Assembly: GCA_905479475.1 (NCBI GenBank)
Contig: CAJQMT010000015.1
Location: 62,001-126,000 of the forward strand
Direction: 5' to 3'
DNA: 64,000 bases
Source: an uncultured Flavobacteriaceae bacterium
GTDB taxonomy: Bacteria; Bacteroidota; Bacteroidia; Flavobacteriales; Flavobacteriaceae
Shown: one piece after another, positions 13,634 to 54,219 of the stretch
How positions within the stretch are numbered: position 1 is the first letter of the stretch
How the letters are laid out: the number at the start of each line of letters is the position of its first letter
The notes under the pieces: model-generated
Told to the model about the DNA's origin: nothing
Database searches by the model: none
The model's input: only the letters and a program-made list of their open reading frames with translations
Program-made: the position numbers and the translations under genes

Positions 13634-16600
13634 ATGAAAAGATTTTTTCCGTTTTTATTCATGCTTTTTTTTGCAAAATGGTACGCTTTTTCGCAATACA
13701 TAGTGACGTCGGAAGGACTGGAACCACAAGAATTGATAGAGCGTAATTTTATAAACGGTTGTGCAGAAGTTTCAAATGCTAGTTCTCTAGTAAATGGCGA
13801 AATTTTGGGGATTGCTAGTTTTGGGAGTTTCCAAAAAGGAACCTCTAATTTTCCATTGGAAAGCGGAATTGTGCTTTCTACGGGAAGTGCGAGCGATTCG
13901 GGGAATACGGTTGTTTCATCTGTCTTAGGAAAAGGAGATGCTTTTTGGGGTAGTGATTTGGATTTGGAAACGTCATTAGGGGCAGGCGGTTTTTTGAATG
14001 CAACTTCCATGGAATTTGATTTTGTTGCAGCGACGAATACAATCTCTTTTCGCTATGTTTTTGCATCTGAAGAATACCAAGATGAAAACGCATGTAATTC
14101 CAGTTTTGACAGCTTTGTTATTTTGATAAAAGAACTGGGAACGAGTGAGCCTTATCGCAATATTGCTTTGGTGTCAAACTCAAATGATTTTGTAGGTACA
14201 GGAAATATAAGACCAGAATCACCAGGACTTTGTCCCTCTCAAAACGGATCTTATTTTGAGGGTTTTGATGATGGAGCAACAAATTTTTATGGGAGAACAA
14301 AGACACTCACGGCTACTACTGCGATTGTTCCCAATCAATCCTATCACATAAAGCTTGTGATTGCCGATCAAGGAGATCAATTTTATGATTCAGCGGTGTT
14401 CATTGAAGGAAATACTTTTGACATAGCTGTAGATCTTGGAGCTGATGTTGAAAGTTGTTCGAATGAGGTACTACTTTCTGCAAGTTTAGAAAATCCTTCA
14501 GCTACTTTTGGATGGTTTTACAATGGTGCTAAAATCGATGAAATCAATACCAATCAATATTTAGCTAAAGATACCGGCACTTATACGGTTAGAAGTGAAA
14601 TCCCTGTTGGTGATGAAATTTGTGTTATGGAAGACACAATTGATGTGCTTTTAAACAAAGAACAGGCAATAGAAAATATTTTAGATTTTACACTTTGTGA
14701 TACGAACAATTCAGGAGACCGAGTGGAAGTGTTTGATTTGACTTTGAAAAATACAGAAATTTCAGACAAGCTCTCCAGCTCAAATTATACAATAAGTTAC
14801 TATTTTTCAGAAGAGGATTCAAAATCCAAATTCAATCAGATCACAGCACCTTTCGAGAACACTTCAACACGCGAGAAAATATTTGTTCGAGCGGAGAATG
14901 CTTCGAACGGCTGTTTAGCCTTTGGTTCTTTTTTTATTCAAGTAAACGATGTTGTTTTCTTTATGGCGCCTGAACCTTTAGAGGTTTGTTCTTCTGGAAA
15001 TAATTCATTTAGTAGTTTGGTAAATTTTAACCAGTCGACAGAAACTGTTCAAAATGGAAATACCGAGCTTAGTGTTACGTATTATGAAAGTCGTTCAAAT
15101 GCTTTGTCAGGAACAAATTCTTTATCCTTGCCATACGAAGTGACGGGCCCTTTCCAAAGGATTTATTTCAGAGTAGAAAATTCTTTGACGGGTTGTTTTG
15201 CAGTTTCGAGTGTGGATGTTGCTGTTTTGAGCAAGCCAAATATTGTTTCGGGAGATTATTTTATTGACGGTTGCGAATTGACGAACGACGGAAGTGAGGT
15301 GTTTGATGTCACAGTTCATGAAAATGAAATACTCGGAGGTCTTAACAATGTGACCACTAGTTATCACAATACCCTGCAGGACGCAATTTCTATGGATAAT
15401 ACAATCGTAAACACTGAAAACTATCCTGTAGATAATTATGAAGAAACTGTTTTTATTCGAGTAGAGGATAACAGTTCGGGGTGCTTTAGCATTGAAGAAA
15501 TTGAACTGAATACCGATGCGCTTCTCACACGGACAAATATTGGTGATGTTTCTGTATGCGATGATTCAAGTAATGATGGTATACAAACGTTTGATTTGGA
15601 TGTTATTGAAACGTCATTTCTAAACAACTTCGGGAACGCTTCGGTTGATTTTTTTGAAAATGAAGCACAACGGGATGCCAATACTGGAGCATTGGACAAA
15701 ACAATTCCATATGTAAATACGAATCCAGGGATACAACCATTGTATATTCGAATCAATTCTGCAACTTGTGATGAGGTAGCAGAATTTAACCTTGTGGTAG
15801 CTCCTTACTTTGAATTAGAACCTTTAGAGGTTCAAGAAGTTTGCGACGAGGATGAAGACTTGCAAATGGTTTTAGATTTGGGTGCTTACGATGATTATGT
15901 GTCTAATGGTATTTCGGGAACAACAGTGAATTATTACTTGAATGAATACACAGCCAGCAACGAATTAGGAAATCCTATTTCAAAAAGTTACAGGAATACA
16001 ACAAATCCTCAAGTGGTGTATGCCAGAGTAGAGAATCAAAATGGTTGCGTTGCCGTAAATCGTTTGGAAATAAAAATTTTACCTGGTCCCATAGTAGGAG
16101 TGCCTTCTGATATTTACATCTGTGATGACGATGAAGATAGCCAAGATGGATTTTACCGTGCAGGTTTGGATTTGGAGTATAGGATTCAAGAGATAACAGC
16201 AGCAAACACGCAAGAAGTTTCAGTTGTTTTTTATACCAGTCAGCTTGAGGCTGAAACAGAGACCAATCCAATTTTAGATCCTGGTAATTTTGAAACAAGT
16301 TCCCGTGATATTTATGCCAGAATAACAAATACTATTTCAAATTGTTTTGAAATTACATCTTTCAAGATCATTATTTCTAGTTTACCCATTACACAAGATA
16401 TAGAACCCTATCAGATTTGTGCAAACGAGGGAGTCGTGGATCAATTCTTATTAGCATCCAAAGACAATGAAATTCTTTTAGGGCAAACAGGAAAAGAAGT
16501 TTTGTATTTTGAATCTGAAGAAAATGCAGACACGAGAAGTAATCCGATTGATAAGCAGCTTTTTTATTCGAATATTTCGAATCCACAGAGGATATATGTA

Positions 16601-19306
16601 CGAATTGAGAATACAAATAATACATCTTGTTATACTTTGAACTCTTTTGAAGTCGAAGTAAAACCGGCGCCAATTTTCAATTTGCCAATCGATGAGAATT
16701 TATGTAGCAGTGCATTTGAAAACAATGAGTTTACCATTGATTTTACAAAGAAAATAAATGAAATAACCGCTGAATCTTCTCAAAACTTAGAGCTGACGTT
16801 TTACAATAGCCAAACGGACGCAAACAACAAAAGGAGTGCTTTGCCTCTGGAGTATACAAGTACCAAATCGCAAACAATTTATGTGCGCATAGAAACGGAG
16901 CGAAATTGTTCTGAAATTGTAGATTTTAGAATCAATGTATTCGTAGCACCTCTGATCGGAGAAGAAGCAACATATGCGATCTGTGATGAAGATTATGACA
17001 GTAAAACTTCTGTTGACTTGACAGGATTAGACTTGCCAATTTTAGATCCAAGGGTGTCTAATTATACCACACAATTTTTTGCAACAGAAAGTGATTTGCT
17101 AAACAACGTTTCGATATCCGATTCTTCCAATTACCCAGTGGATACTAGTGCACGGATTTATGTGAAAGTTACCAATAATATTACTGGATGTTCTTCTGAG
17201 ATACCATTGGATGTCACTATAGAAACACCTCCTGTTTACACACCTGTTTCGAGCTATGAATTCTGTGAGACGCCTGACAATTTTGTAGATTTGAGTGAAA
17301 TCACTCCCTTGTTTGAGCTTCCGGCATCCGCAACAGTGGTTTATTATAAGAGCAGAATAGATGCAGAATTGCAAAGAAATGGAACGGTCAATCGTTACCA
17401 GTACCTGTCAACAAATGAAACGATTTTTGTTCGATTTGAAGGAGCGAATGGCTGTTCTTACATCGATTCTCTCGATGTACAGATCAATCCGAACCCTGTA
17501 TTTGTTACTCCACAAGATTTAGAAGCCTGTGATGATAATGGAAACGCTTCCGCGTTGTATAATTTCTCAGCAATACAGGATACGACCATTTTGAATGGCG
17601 CCGATGCAGCTGATTTTACAATTACCTATCACAAATCTGAGCAGAATGCTTCCAATGGAACAGAAGTGCTTTCTGAAAATTACCGCGCGTTTGATGGCGA
17701 ACAGATATGGTTTCGTGTAGAAAACAACCAAACCAATTGTTGGAGTGTGGGCAGTTTTAGTACCGTTGTCAATTCTTTGCCAGAAGTAAGCTTCCCATCC
17801 CTTGAAACTCCGGGAGAATACAAGGTTTGTGACAAAGATTATGATGGAAAGACTTTTGTTGACTTGACAGCATTGGACGTGCAAGTCTTAGACTCCTCAA
17901 ATCATACCACACAATTTTTTGCAACAGAAAGTGATTTGCTAAACAACGTTTCGATATCCGATTCTTCCAATTACCCAGTGGATACTAGTGCACGGATTTA
18001 TGTGAAAGTTACCAATAATATTACTGGATGTTCTTCTGAGATACCATTGGATGTCACTATAGAAACACCTCCTGTTTACACACCTGTTTCGAGCTATGAA
18101 TTCTGTGAGACGCCTGACAATTTTGTAGATTTGAGTGAAATCACTCCCTTGTTTGAGCTTCCGGCATCCGCAACAGTGGTTTATTATAAGAGCAGAATAG
18201 ATGCAGAATTGCAAAGAAATGGAACGGTCAATCGTTACCAGTACCTGTCAACAAATGAAACGATTTTTGTTCGATTTGAAGGAGCGAATGGCTGTTCTTA
18301 CATCGATTCTCTCGATGTACAGATCAATCCGAACCCTGTATTTGTTACTCCACAAGATTTAGAAGCCTGTGATGATAATGGAAACGCTTCCGCGTTGTAT
18401 AATTTCTCAGCAATACAGGATACGACCATTTTGAATGGCGCCGATGCAGCTGATTTTACAATTACCTATCACAAATCTGAGCAGAATGCTTCCAATGGAA
18501 CAGAAGTGCTTTCTGAAAATTACCGCGCGTTTGATGGCGAACAGATATGGTTTCGTGTAGAAAACAACCAAACCAATTGTTGGAGTGTGGGCAGTTTTAG
18601 TACCGTTGTCAATCCCTCGCCCGTAATTGATGTCATTGACAATCCTACTTTGTGTTTGGATGGAAATCCTCTTGTTTTAATGGCAAATAATAGTCCAACA
18701 GATACATATGAGTGGTCTACAGGTGAAAGTTCTCAAAGTATTGAAATTACCGAAGCAGGGCTATATTTTGTCAAAGTAACAAATGAGTACGGTTGTGATT
18801 TGTTGAAAGAATTTACAGTCAATGCAGCAGTGCTTTTGGGAATAGGTGTTTTCCATTTCCAACAGCCCTCCAAAGTGAGTGTTGAAATTTCAGGCGAGGG
18901 TATCTATGAATATCAATTGGATGATGGTTTCACACAAACTTCCAACGTTTTTGACGATGTTTCTGTAGGTGAGCATCGTGTTACAATATACGACACCAAT
19001 GGCTGTGGCCCTGTTAGTCGAAATATTTTTGTCTTGAACCATCCATTGTACTTTACCCCAGAAGGGACATTGCCTTATTGGCAAATACTAGGGATCGAAA
19101 ACATTACTGGAATGACAGCGACAAAAGTGCTTATTTATGATAGGAATGGTAGACTCGTTGGAATCTTAAGTGAAAATTCTCAAGGTTGGGATGGAAGAGA
19201 TTTGAATGGAACTCCACTGCCAGCGACAGATTATTGGTTTAGTGCCGATGTAATGGTCGACGGAAATCACATTATTGCTACAGGTAATTTTAGTTTGTTA
19301 CGTTAG
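13634..19306 (+). CDS. Giant secreted repeat protein: choice-of-anchor L domain, tandem ~93-residue modules, T9SS type B sorting domain
   Basis: An 1890-residue cell-surface protein. A signal peptide (about residues 1-21, ending YAFSQ) is followed by a choice-of-anchor L domain (about 25-270; FVFASEEYQDE-like, VIADQGDQFYDSAVFIEG). An Ig-like stretch comes next, then about a dozen tandem modules of roughly 93 residues. Each follows the plan C-D ... FDL ... V-x-YY/F ... Y ... IYVRxE ... C, with paired cysteines. Another Ig-like region (WSTGESSQSIEI) and a type B C-terminal signal (YFTPEGTLPYW, VLIYDRNGRLV, GWDGRDLNGTPLPATDYWF) end the protein. Secretion through the outer membrane by the type IX system and surface attachment are inferred from that signal. 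Bases 17064-17773 and 17904-18613 are identical. Adhesin or scaffold roles are likely but unproven. Confidence 0.92.
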   Translation: MKRFFPFLFMLFFAKWYAFSQYIVTSEGLEPQELIERNFINGCAEVSNASSLVNGEILGIASFGSFQKGTSNFPLESGIVLSTGSASDSGNTVVSSVLGKGDAFWGSDLDLETSLGAGGFLNATSMEFDFVAATNTISFRYVFASEEYQDENACNSSFDSFVILIKELGTSEPYRNIALVSNSNDFVGTGNIRPESPGLCPSQNGSYFEGFDDGATNFYGRTKTLTATTAIVPNQSYHIKLVIADQGDQFYDSAVFIEGNTFDIAVDLGADVESCSNEVLLSASLENPSATFGWFYNGAKIDEINTNQYLAKDTGTYTVRSEIPVGDEICVMEDTIDVLLNKEQAIENILDFTLCDTNNSGDRVEVFDLTLKNTEISDKLSSSNYTISYYFSEEDSKSKFNQITAPFENTSTREKIFVRAENASNGCLAFGSFFIQVNDVVFFMAPEPLEVCSSGNNSFSSLVNFNQSTETVQNGNTELSVTYYESRSNALSGTNSLSLPYEVTGPFQRIYFRVENSLTGCFAVSSVDVAVLSKPNIVSGDYFIDGCELTNDGSEVFDVTVHENEILGGLNNVTTSYHNTLQDAISMDNTIVNTENYPVDNYEETVFIRVEDNSSGCFSIEEIELNTDALLTRTNIGDVSVCDDSSNDGIQTFDLDVIETSFLNNFGNASVDFFENEAQRDANTGALDKTIPYVNTNPGIQPLYIRINSATCDEVAEFNLVVAPYFELEPLEVQEVCDEDEDLQMVLDLGAYDDYVSNGISGTTVNYYLNEYTASNELGNPISKSYRNTTNPQVVYARVENQNGCVAVNRLEIKILPGPIVGVPSDIYICDDDEDSQDGFYRAGLDLEYRIQEITAANTQEVSVVFYTSQLEAETETNPILDPGNFETSSRDIYARITNTISNCFEITSFKIIISSLPITQDIEPYQICANEGVVDQFLLASKDNEILLGQTGKEVLYFESEENADTRSNPIDKQLFYSNISNPQRIYVRIENTNNTSCYTLNSFEVEVKPAPIFNLPIDENLCSSAFENNEFTIDFTKKINEITAESSQNLELTFYNSQTDANNKRSALPLEYTSTKSQTIYVRIETERNCSEIVDFRINVFVAPLIGEEATYAICDEDYDSKTSVDLTGLDLPILDPRVSNYTTQFFATESDLLNNVSISDSSNYPVDTSARIYVKVTNNITGCSSEIPLDVTIETPPVYTPVSSYEFCETPDNFVDLSEITPLFELPASATVVYYKSRIDAELQRNGTVNRYQYLSTNETIFVRFEGANGCSYIDSLDVQINPNPVFVTPQDLEACDDNGNASALYNFSAIQDTTILNGADAADFTITYHKSEQNASNGTEVLSENYRAFDGEQIWFRVENNQTNCWSVGSFSTVVNSLPEVSFPSLETPGEYKVCDKDYDGKTFVDLTALDVQVLDSSNHTTQFFATESDLLNNVSISDSSNYPVDTSARIYVKVTNNITGCSSEIPLDVTIETPPVYTPVSSYEFCETPDNFVDLSEITPLFELPASATVVYYKSRIDAELQRNGTVNRYQYLSTNETIFVRFEGANGCSYIDSLDVQINPNPVFVTPQDLEACDDNGNASALYNFSAIQDTTILNGADAADFTITYHKSEQNASNGTEVLSENYRAFDGEQIWFRVENNQTNCWSVGSFSTVVNPSPVIDVIDNPTLCLDGNPLVLMANNSPTDTYEWSTGESSQSIEITEAGLYFVKVTNEYGCDLLKEFTVNAAVLLGIGVFHFQQPSKVSVEISGEGIYEYQLDDGFTQTSNVFDDVSVGEHRVTIYDTNGCGPVSRNIFVLNHPLYFTPEGTLPYWQILGIENITGMTATKVLIYDRNGRLVGILSENSQGWDGRDLNGTPLPATDYWFSADVMVDGNHIIATGNFSLLR
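17064..17773 (+). repeat. Exact 710-bp direct repeat, copy 1
   Basis: Identical base for base to 17904-18613, with an offset of 840 bp (280 codons, three protein modules). The 130 bp before each copy are homologous but clearly diverged, and the 3' flanks differ too. It lies within the giant secreted protein gene. Confidence 0.97.
17904..18613 (+). repeat. Exact 710-bp direct repeat, copy 2
   Basis: Second copy of the in-frame repeat, ending where the protein passes into its C-terminal Ig-like region. Reading frame is preserved across both copies. Confidence 0.97.
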
Positions 19307-53900: not shown

Positions 53901-53976
53901 TGGTGACCGGGCTGGGGCTCGAACCCAGGACCCTCTCCTTAAAAGGGAGATGCTCTACCAACTGAGCTACCAGGTC
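53901..53976 (-). tRNA. tRNA-Lys (anticodon TTT), copy with encoded CCA
   Basis: 76 nt including CCA. Anticodon loop CTTTTAA gives TTT; T arm CTGGGTTCGAGCCCCAG. The acceptor GACCTGG/CCCGGTC has a single U5-C68 mismatch, shared with the other copy. Last gene of the tRNA operon. Confidence 0.95.
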
Positions 53977-54001
53977 GTTTGCAAAAAAAAAAGGAAATTT
54001 G

Positions 54002-54082
<81 letters not shown>

Positions 54083-54120
54083 AAAATTTCAATAAAAGGA
54101 CGTTTTGTTTTAAAAACTTG

Positions 54121-54193
54121 TGACCGGGCTGGGGCTCGAACCCAGGACCCTCTCCTTAAAAGGGAGATGCTCTACCAACTGAGCTACCAGGTC
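54121..54193 (-). tRNA. tRNA-Lys (anticodon TTT), copy without encoded CCA
   Basis: 73 nt, identical in the tRNA body to the copy at 53901-53976, but the 3' CCA is not encoded. First gene of the tRNA operon. Confidence 0.95.
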
Positions 54194-54219
54194 GTTTATT
54201 TCCTCCTTTTTTGCGGGTG

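Follow-up and report, generated by a model that had tools for sequence, protein, structure and literature searches.

Probable recent homogenisation of two old three-domain units within one gene for a predicted T9SS surface protein

A single gene of an uncultured Flavobacteriaceae bacterium contains two copies of a 710-bp tract that are identical at every position and lie within repeat units that have otherwise diverged. The best explanation, held here at a probability of roughly 0.7, is that two old copies of a three-module unit, the triad T1-T2-T3, were recently homogenised by recombination inside the gene. This reading is carried by the identity of the tract, its old flanks, the triad as the unit of repetition and mosaic triads in related genes. 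The gene lies in a stretch of 64,000 nucleotides (hereafter, the window) that forms part of contig 15 of a 1.84-Mb draft genome in 54 contigs. The event is reconstructed from this one draft assembly, on which the exact identity and copy number of the tract also rest.

Both copies of the tract fall within one open reading frame (ORF) of 1890 aa (Table 1), originally predicted to encode a T9SS surface protein. That description holds: the sorting-domain model TIGR04131 scores 58.3 bits by hmmscan and 63.7 bits in a genome search, over a cut-off of 35, and by virtue of this domain the product is a predicted T9SS type B surface protein. Pfam CHU_C reaches 24.1 bits on the same protein, below its cut-off of 27, and a hydrophobic N-terminus is visible in the protein sequence. 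Position-specific HMMs label the interior as M1 to M8, T1-T2-T3 twice, and P. The Ig_7 model scores 35.5 bits over the whole protein (cut-off 27.3), no single stretch passing alone, and its best stretch is T2 of triad 1. The genome holds one other T9SS type B match (C20), in which 5.5 kb contain no exact direct repeat of at least 25 bp, and a search of this genome for another triad-bearing gene found none.

Table 1. Features of the gene and of its internal repeat, in window coordinates.
Feature	Position	Strand	Basis
Gene for a predicted 1890-aa T9SS type B surface protein (anchor-L, M1-M8, two triads, P, sorting domain)	13634..19306	+	ORF, HMMs
Choice-of-anchor L domain, residues 40-262	13751..14419	+	NF038133, 140.1 bits (cut-off 27)
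Position-specific modules M1-M8, ~93 aa each	14675..16963	+	Position HMMs
Triad 1 (T1 16964-17245, T2 17246-17509, T3 17510-17794)	16964..17794	+	Position HMMs
Triad 2 (T1 17810-18085, T2 18086-18349, T3 18350-18634)	17810..18634	+	Position HMMs
P-type domain after the last triad	18638..19042	+	Position HMMs
T9SS type B sorting domain (Bac_Flav_CTERM)	19037..19303	+	TIGR04131
Diverged 5' flank of copy 1 (start of first T1, with Arg)	16934..17063	+	Flank comparison
Identical tract read as homogenised, copy 1	17064..17773	+	0 differences to copy 2
Diverged 130-bp spacer (linker and start of second T1, without Arg)	17774..17903	+	Flank comparison
Identical tract read as homogenised, copy 2	17904..18613	+	Exact identity to copy 1

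An exact-match comparison within the window gave 0 mismatches over exactly 710 bp at an offset of 840 bp, and the identity stops sharply at both ends. In 200 codon-shuffled versions of the gene, the longest exact repeat did not exceed 16 bp. A search of the 64-kb window for direct repeats (seed 20, length at least 60) returned, besides the tract, only a 78-bp pair covering two tRNA-Lys(TTT) genes, which flank a tRNA-Tyr gene at 53903-54197. Across the genome draft, the tract matches two places only, both within the one gene, and the spacer matches only itself and the flank of copy 1; an outside source for the tract was sought in the same draft and none was found.

The flanks of the two copies differ in kind. 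The 5' flanks are diverged homologues, 80% identical over 65 nt at an offset of 846, and the 3' flanks have no clear homology past the first bases. At its 3' boundary the tract stops where the triads cease to be homologous, and only the 5' boundary falls inside homologous sequence. On that side, the triad starts differ at 29 nucleotides over 32 aligned codons, with a dS of 1.11 and a dN of 0.27 (NG86; rough values that rest on 32 codons), so that 710 identical bp directly adjoin older homologous sequence at a dS of ~1.1. It follows that the triads are old and that the 710 bp were probably overwritten later. The original prediction had reported the identical copies at this offset, equated 840 bp with three modules, and described diverged homology on the 5' side and differing sequence on the 3' side. 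Each of these points is confirmed, the period being one T1-T2-T3 triad as labelled by the position HMMs. Its proposal of gene conversion between older 280-residue units is likewise supported by the difference between a dS of ~1.1 at the triad starts and 0 differences in the tract.

The copies stand head to tail with a period of exactly three modules, as would be produced by a fresh tandem duplication of an 840-bp unit through a single unequal crossover. Such a duplication predicts 840 matching bp; 710 are seen, and the other 130 bp are diverged, with gaps, at a dS of ~1.1. The second T1 also lacks the Arg of the first T1, like the remaining 22 later T1 modules (23 in all) in the sample described below. 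A fresh duplication is therefore excluded, with very little probability left to it, and the earlier claim that one unequal crossover does not suffice was correct. Strong constraint holding the two tracts identical was also rejected, its probability being close to nil. Silent sites are identical across all 710 bp as well, most of the stretch has only 33-56% protein identity (25-codon blocks) to its counterpart in the congeneric genome G003, and in 15 of the 17 multi-triad genes 33-40% of aligned sites vary between the triads of the gene. No evidence in support of constraint was found.

The presence or absence of Arg at the start of T1 provides a further mark. In the window's gene, residue 1140 (codon 17051-17053) of the first T1 is Arg. 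In multi-triad genes, all 17 first T1 modules have Arg at this position, as against 0 of 23 later T1 modules; among single-triad genes, 82 of 99 have it. These counts cover 143 of 159 triads after removal of identical ones, leave four truncated single-triad ORFs (all with Arg) outside the 82 of 99, and are not independent owing to common descent. Since the second T1 of the window's gene lacks the Arg, it does not appear to begin with a fresh copy of the first T1 start. Scored with HMMs built on this start region, the window's first T1 is of the first type (32.6 against 24.1 bits), and its second T1 comes close to a tie (32.4 against 31.2 bits).

The original prediction had asked for module counts to be compared among related strains. 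The comparison was made across genomes of different species, one genome per species, in 40 fetched loci and 76 named loci. The latter are the best 76 of at least 571 relatives returned by an alignment-based genome scan; a genome scan with the single window protein as query gave no matches. As the ORFs were retrieved by similarity to the window's two-triad protein, long arrays are probably over-represented, and the species are not independent. Training of the position HMMs used 38 single-triad ORFs, of which 10 share their locus with another array gene, and ORFs with identical last 700 residues were removed as duplicates. In a separate survey of 397 genomes of the family, the matches listed included long ORFs near 1606-1664, 1897-1926 and 2167-2189 aa, along with shorter or truncated ones.

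The comparison yielded 122 distinct array-like ORFs. Those that reach P number 115, and every one of these follows the layout M1-M8, (T1-T2-T3)n, P, an array being called complete when it runs from M1 to P. By strict labels, 113 of the 115 are regular; L155_+1959 and L163 each contain one module for which the HMM of another position scored best, which was allowed. The number of triads, counted only in ORFs holding a whole T1-T2-T3 (a condition dropped for the layout count), is one in 99 ORFs, two in 11, three in four and four in one. None of the 115 has gained or lost one or two modules. The remaining seven ORFs are truncated where a contig or stretch ends, or are interrupted in some other way; in one of them, L158, only seven M labels precede T1, and an M module may be missing or below threshold. 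As judged from these labels, the complete arrays examined differ in length only by whole triads, and the claim that the 280-residue unit is old is upheld by a layout common to all P-reaching ORFs of the relatives. Between congeners, G002 (L115) has the layout of the window's gene with two diverged triads, and G003 has one triad. Two or three triads also occur in cultivated species such as Psychroserpens burtonensis and Winogradskyella pacifica. Triads within one gene are 60-67% identical in DNA in 15 of the 17 multi-triad genes, 64-77% in the three-triad gene G149, and 96% in the window's gene. The family would fit an old duplication of three modules, since which only modules of equal type would have been similar enough in DNA to recombine.

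Some loci carry more than one array gene. L116 (uncultured Psychroserpens 14-3Z) has three consecutive array genes, which contain four complete triads, two, and at least one, respectively, the four-triad ORF extending to the edge of the retrieved stretch; several array genes per locus are also found in L080, L088, L089, L092, L094 and L101. Separately, L118:1650, L121:1609, L123:1685 and others have a neighbouring protein of ~1100 aa in which the best-scoring labels of the modules come in a different order, the last being M8-like and P-like.

Traces of recombination between triads are also visible in the relatives. In G149 (L099:6459-8975), the second triad agrees with the third at 81-89% of bases in blocks 1-5, to about codon 125, and with the first at 83-100% in blocks 6-11, with a single switch point; the first and third are 39-63% alike in full blocks. 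The second triad is thus a likely product of unequal crossover inside a triad, that is, of expansion. In two Winogradskyella genes with two triads, L155 and L117, comparison with the successive triads of L170 (Winogradskyella) and G184 (L101), which have three each, reveals a first triad that is t1-like and then t2-like after about codon 100, and a second triad that follows t3. In a tree of the tract region, the second triads of L170 and G184 and the first triads of L155 and L117 form one group (100/100). The mosaic probably reflects contraction. Exact repeats of at least 30 bp, sought in one set of other ORFs, occur only in G149, the longest being 86 bp. A search of a second set for repeats of at least 40 bp gave none besides those in L154 and L160, which at offsets of 1-4 were taken as one-letter runs (probably N) and disregarded without inspection. 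As exact repeats as long as the tract occur only in the window's gene, its case would be the most recent in the sample.

The same mosaics, both expansion-like and contraction-like, lend some weight to a route through two crossovers, in which an unequal crossover would yield three triads (the first, a hybrid and the old second) and another crossover near the end of T3 would then remove the old second. Arrays of three and four triads do exist. This route needs two events close in time, and no trace of a third triad is present in the window; it is considered unlikely. Its end product is the same as that of one conversion, and one genome therefore does not separate the two.

The donor triad was sought with HMMs and with tree tests. 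HMMs of first and last triads classify the tract region correctly in 28 of 31 cases when one protein at a time is left out, the three misses including both triads of the congeneric G002. The window's tract is tied between the two, at 203.9 bits on the first-triad HMM and 205.0 on the last-triad HMM. AU tests of four placements of the tract rejected none (p 0.24-0.42). The tract-region tree, which includes 44 of the 143 triads, places the window's tract beside the only triad of G003 (97/86) and weakly unites both triads of G002 (93/54). In the window's lineage, the duplication may accordingly have taken place after the genus arose, or homogenisation may have affected the arrays repeatedly.

The draft state of the genome must also be weighed, as the assembly, if made from short reads, may have collapsed two near-identical tracts, or arrived at the wrong copy number where a repeat loop was walked once. 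The genome is in 54 contigs and gave no match for 16S in a search that was positive in only 9 of 14 control genomes; a 16S gene is commonly absent from short-read metagenome bins. Repeats longer than the reads cannot be fully resolved with short reads, according to the part of the source consulted (PMC6868369). The window itself is free of N, extends 17 kb to the left and 45 kb to the right of the repeat, and belongs to a contig that begins 62 kb before it. Moreover, the two copies are joined to different sequence at their 5' ends and again at their 3' ends, which a collapse of strongly diverged triads would not give, and these different entries and exits argue that the homogenisation is real. 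An assembly effect could mask an additional copy or a small number of differences, but would not be expected to create the homogenisation, and as an explanation of the repeat it is improbable.

At the level of structure, the modules are predicted to fold as Ig-like β-sandwiches, as indicated jointly by Ig_7, AlphaFold and Foldseek. When M8-T1-T2-T3 was aligned across 64 sequences, namely the window and 63 of 85 candidate relatives, two cysteines per module proved invariant, and these pairs would be expected to form disulphides. The AlphaFold model of this segment (window 16685-17794) is strand-rich, with a pLDDT of 92.9 and a pTM of 0.71. Its best solved match by Foldseek is GhpA, the Aureispira grappling hook protein (PDB 9fly, 9fls and others; E 1.1e-13), at a TM-score of only 0.36 by query length and an rmsd of 11; Ig and cadherin chains are also among the best matches, at low whole-chain TM-scores. 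GhpA is a many-domain bacterial protein. Searches of PDB sequences found nothing credible and no match to GhpA, and the model therefore suggests a like fold without sequence similarity.

Taken as a mechanism, homogenisation would start from two old copies of T1-T2-T3, ~840 bp each, within one gene. A recent homologous recombination would then have replaced at least 710 bp of one triad with the sequence of the other, in its simplest form as a single gene-conversion event between misaligned triad copies, presumably carried out by RecA-type machinery. The tract begins ~100 bp inside T1 and ends at the T3 linker, where homology between the triads ends; the reading frame was kept and, if the event was a plain conversion, protein length about kept as well. 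In relatives, crossovers by which whole triads are gained or lost seem to rest on the same triad homology, and the number of triads would affect how far the N-terminal domain extends from the cell. A bolder proposal, offered only tentatively, regards the family as a length ladder with fixed ends, non-exchangeable modules M1-M8, whole-triad cassettes and a first-T1 junction, marked by the Arg, that recombination tracts must spare. Selection on that junction, by limiting where tracts may end, would account for where the window's tract has its 5' border.

The mechanism itself is ordinary, intragenic recombination in repetitive surface proteins being already well known, and the new part is the three-domain step of length change. 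A search of the open-access literature found no description of such a step or of a marked first T1, and the name “choice-of-anchor L” appears in no paper of the open-access literature searched; the portion of PMC4647330 consulted contains nothing bearing on module recombination. The family nonetheless provides a clean natural record, with the triad as the length step in 115 P-reaching ORFs and, among them and the window's gene, an apparent recent homogenisation, a mosaic consistent with expansion and another consistent with contraction. It makes testable whether domain interfaces restrict where recombination tracts survive.

Among described systems, Periscope proteins and BadA are the nearest cases found, as far as the consulted parts of their sources extend. 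Periscope proteins, such as Sgo_0707, are surface proteins with tandem arrays of folded domains whose repeat number varies, for which intragenic recombination has been proposed, and they are recognised by highly identical repeats together with length variation among strains (PMC8201768, in part). The predicted surface location, tandem array of folded domains and variable repeat number are shared by the present family, its variation being seen between genomes of different species. Here, however, the unit consists of three different domains. High identity is found in the window's gene alone (96%), the copies in 15 of 17 genes being 60-67% identical and those of G149 at most 77%; the family thus works like Periscope proteins and is not filed among them. 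In the BadA island of Bartonella henselae, a repetitive surface adhesin has been reshaped by domain duplications, acquisitions and deletions through recombination (PMC8859334, in part), and this remodelling of the domains of a repetitive surface protein is the point of likeness. BadA is a trimeric autotransporter flanked by badA pseudogenes, whereas the protein described here is of T9SS type and its genome yielded no second triad-bearing gene. Finally, non-reciprocal conversion tracts homogenise the duplicate tuf genes of Salmonella, each of 1185 nt (PMC5485169, in part), which makes the size of a 710-bp tract unremarkable. Both cases concern the homogenisation of duplicates in a bacterium over a comparable size range, but the tuf pair consists of two separate genes with 12 nucleotide differences under laboratory selection, whereas the copies considered here are two parts of one gene, in a natural genome.
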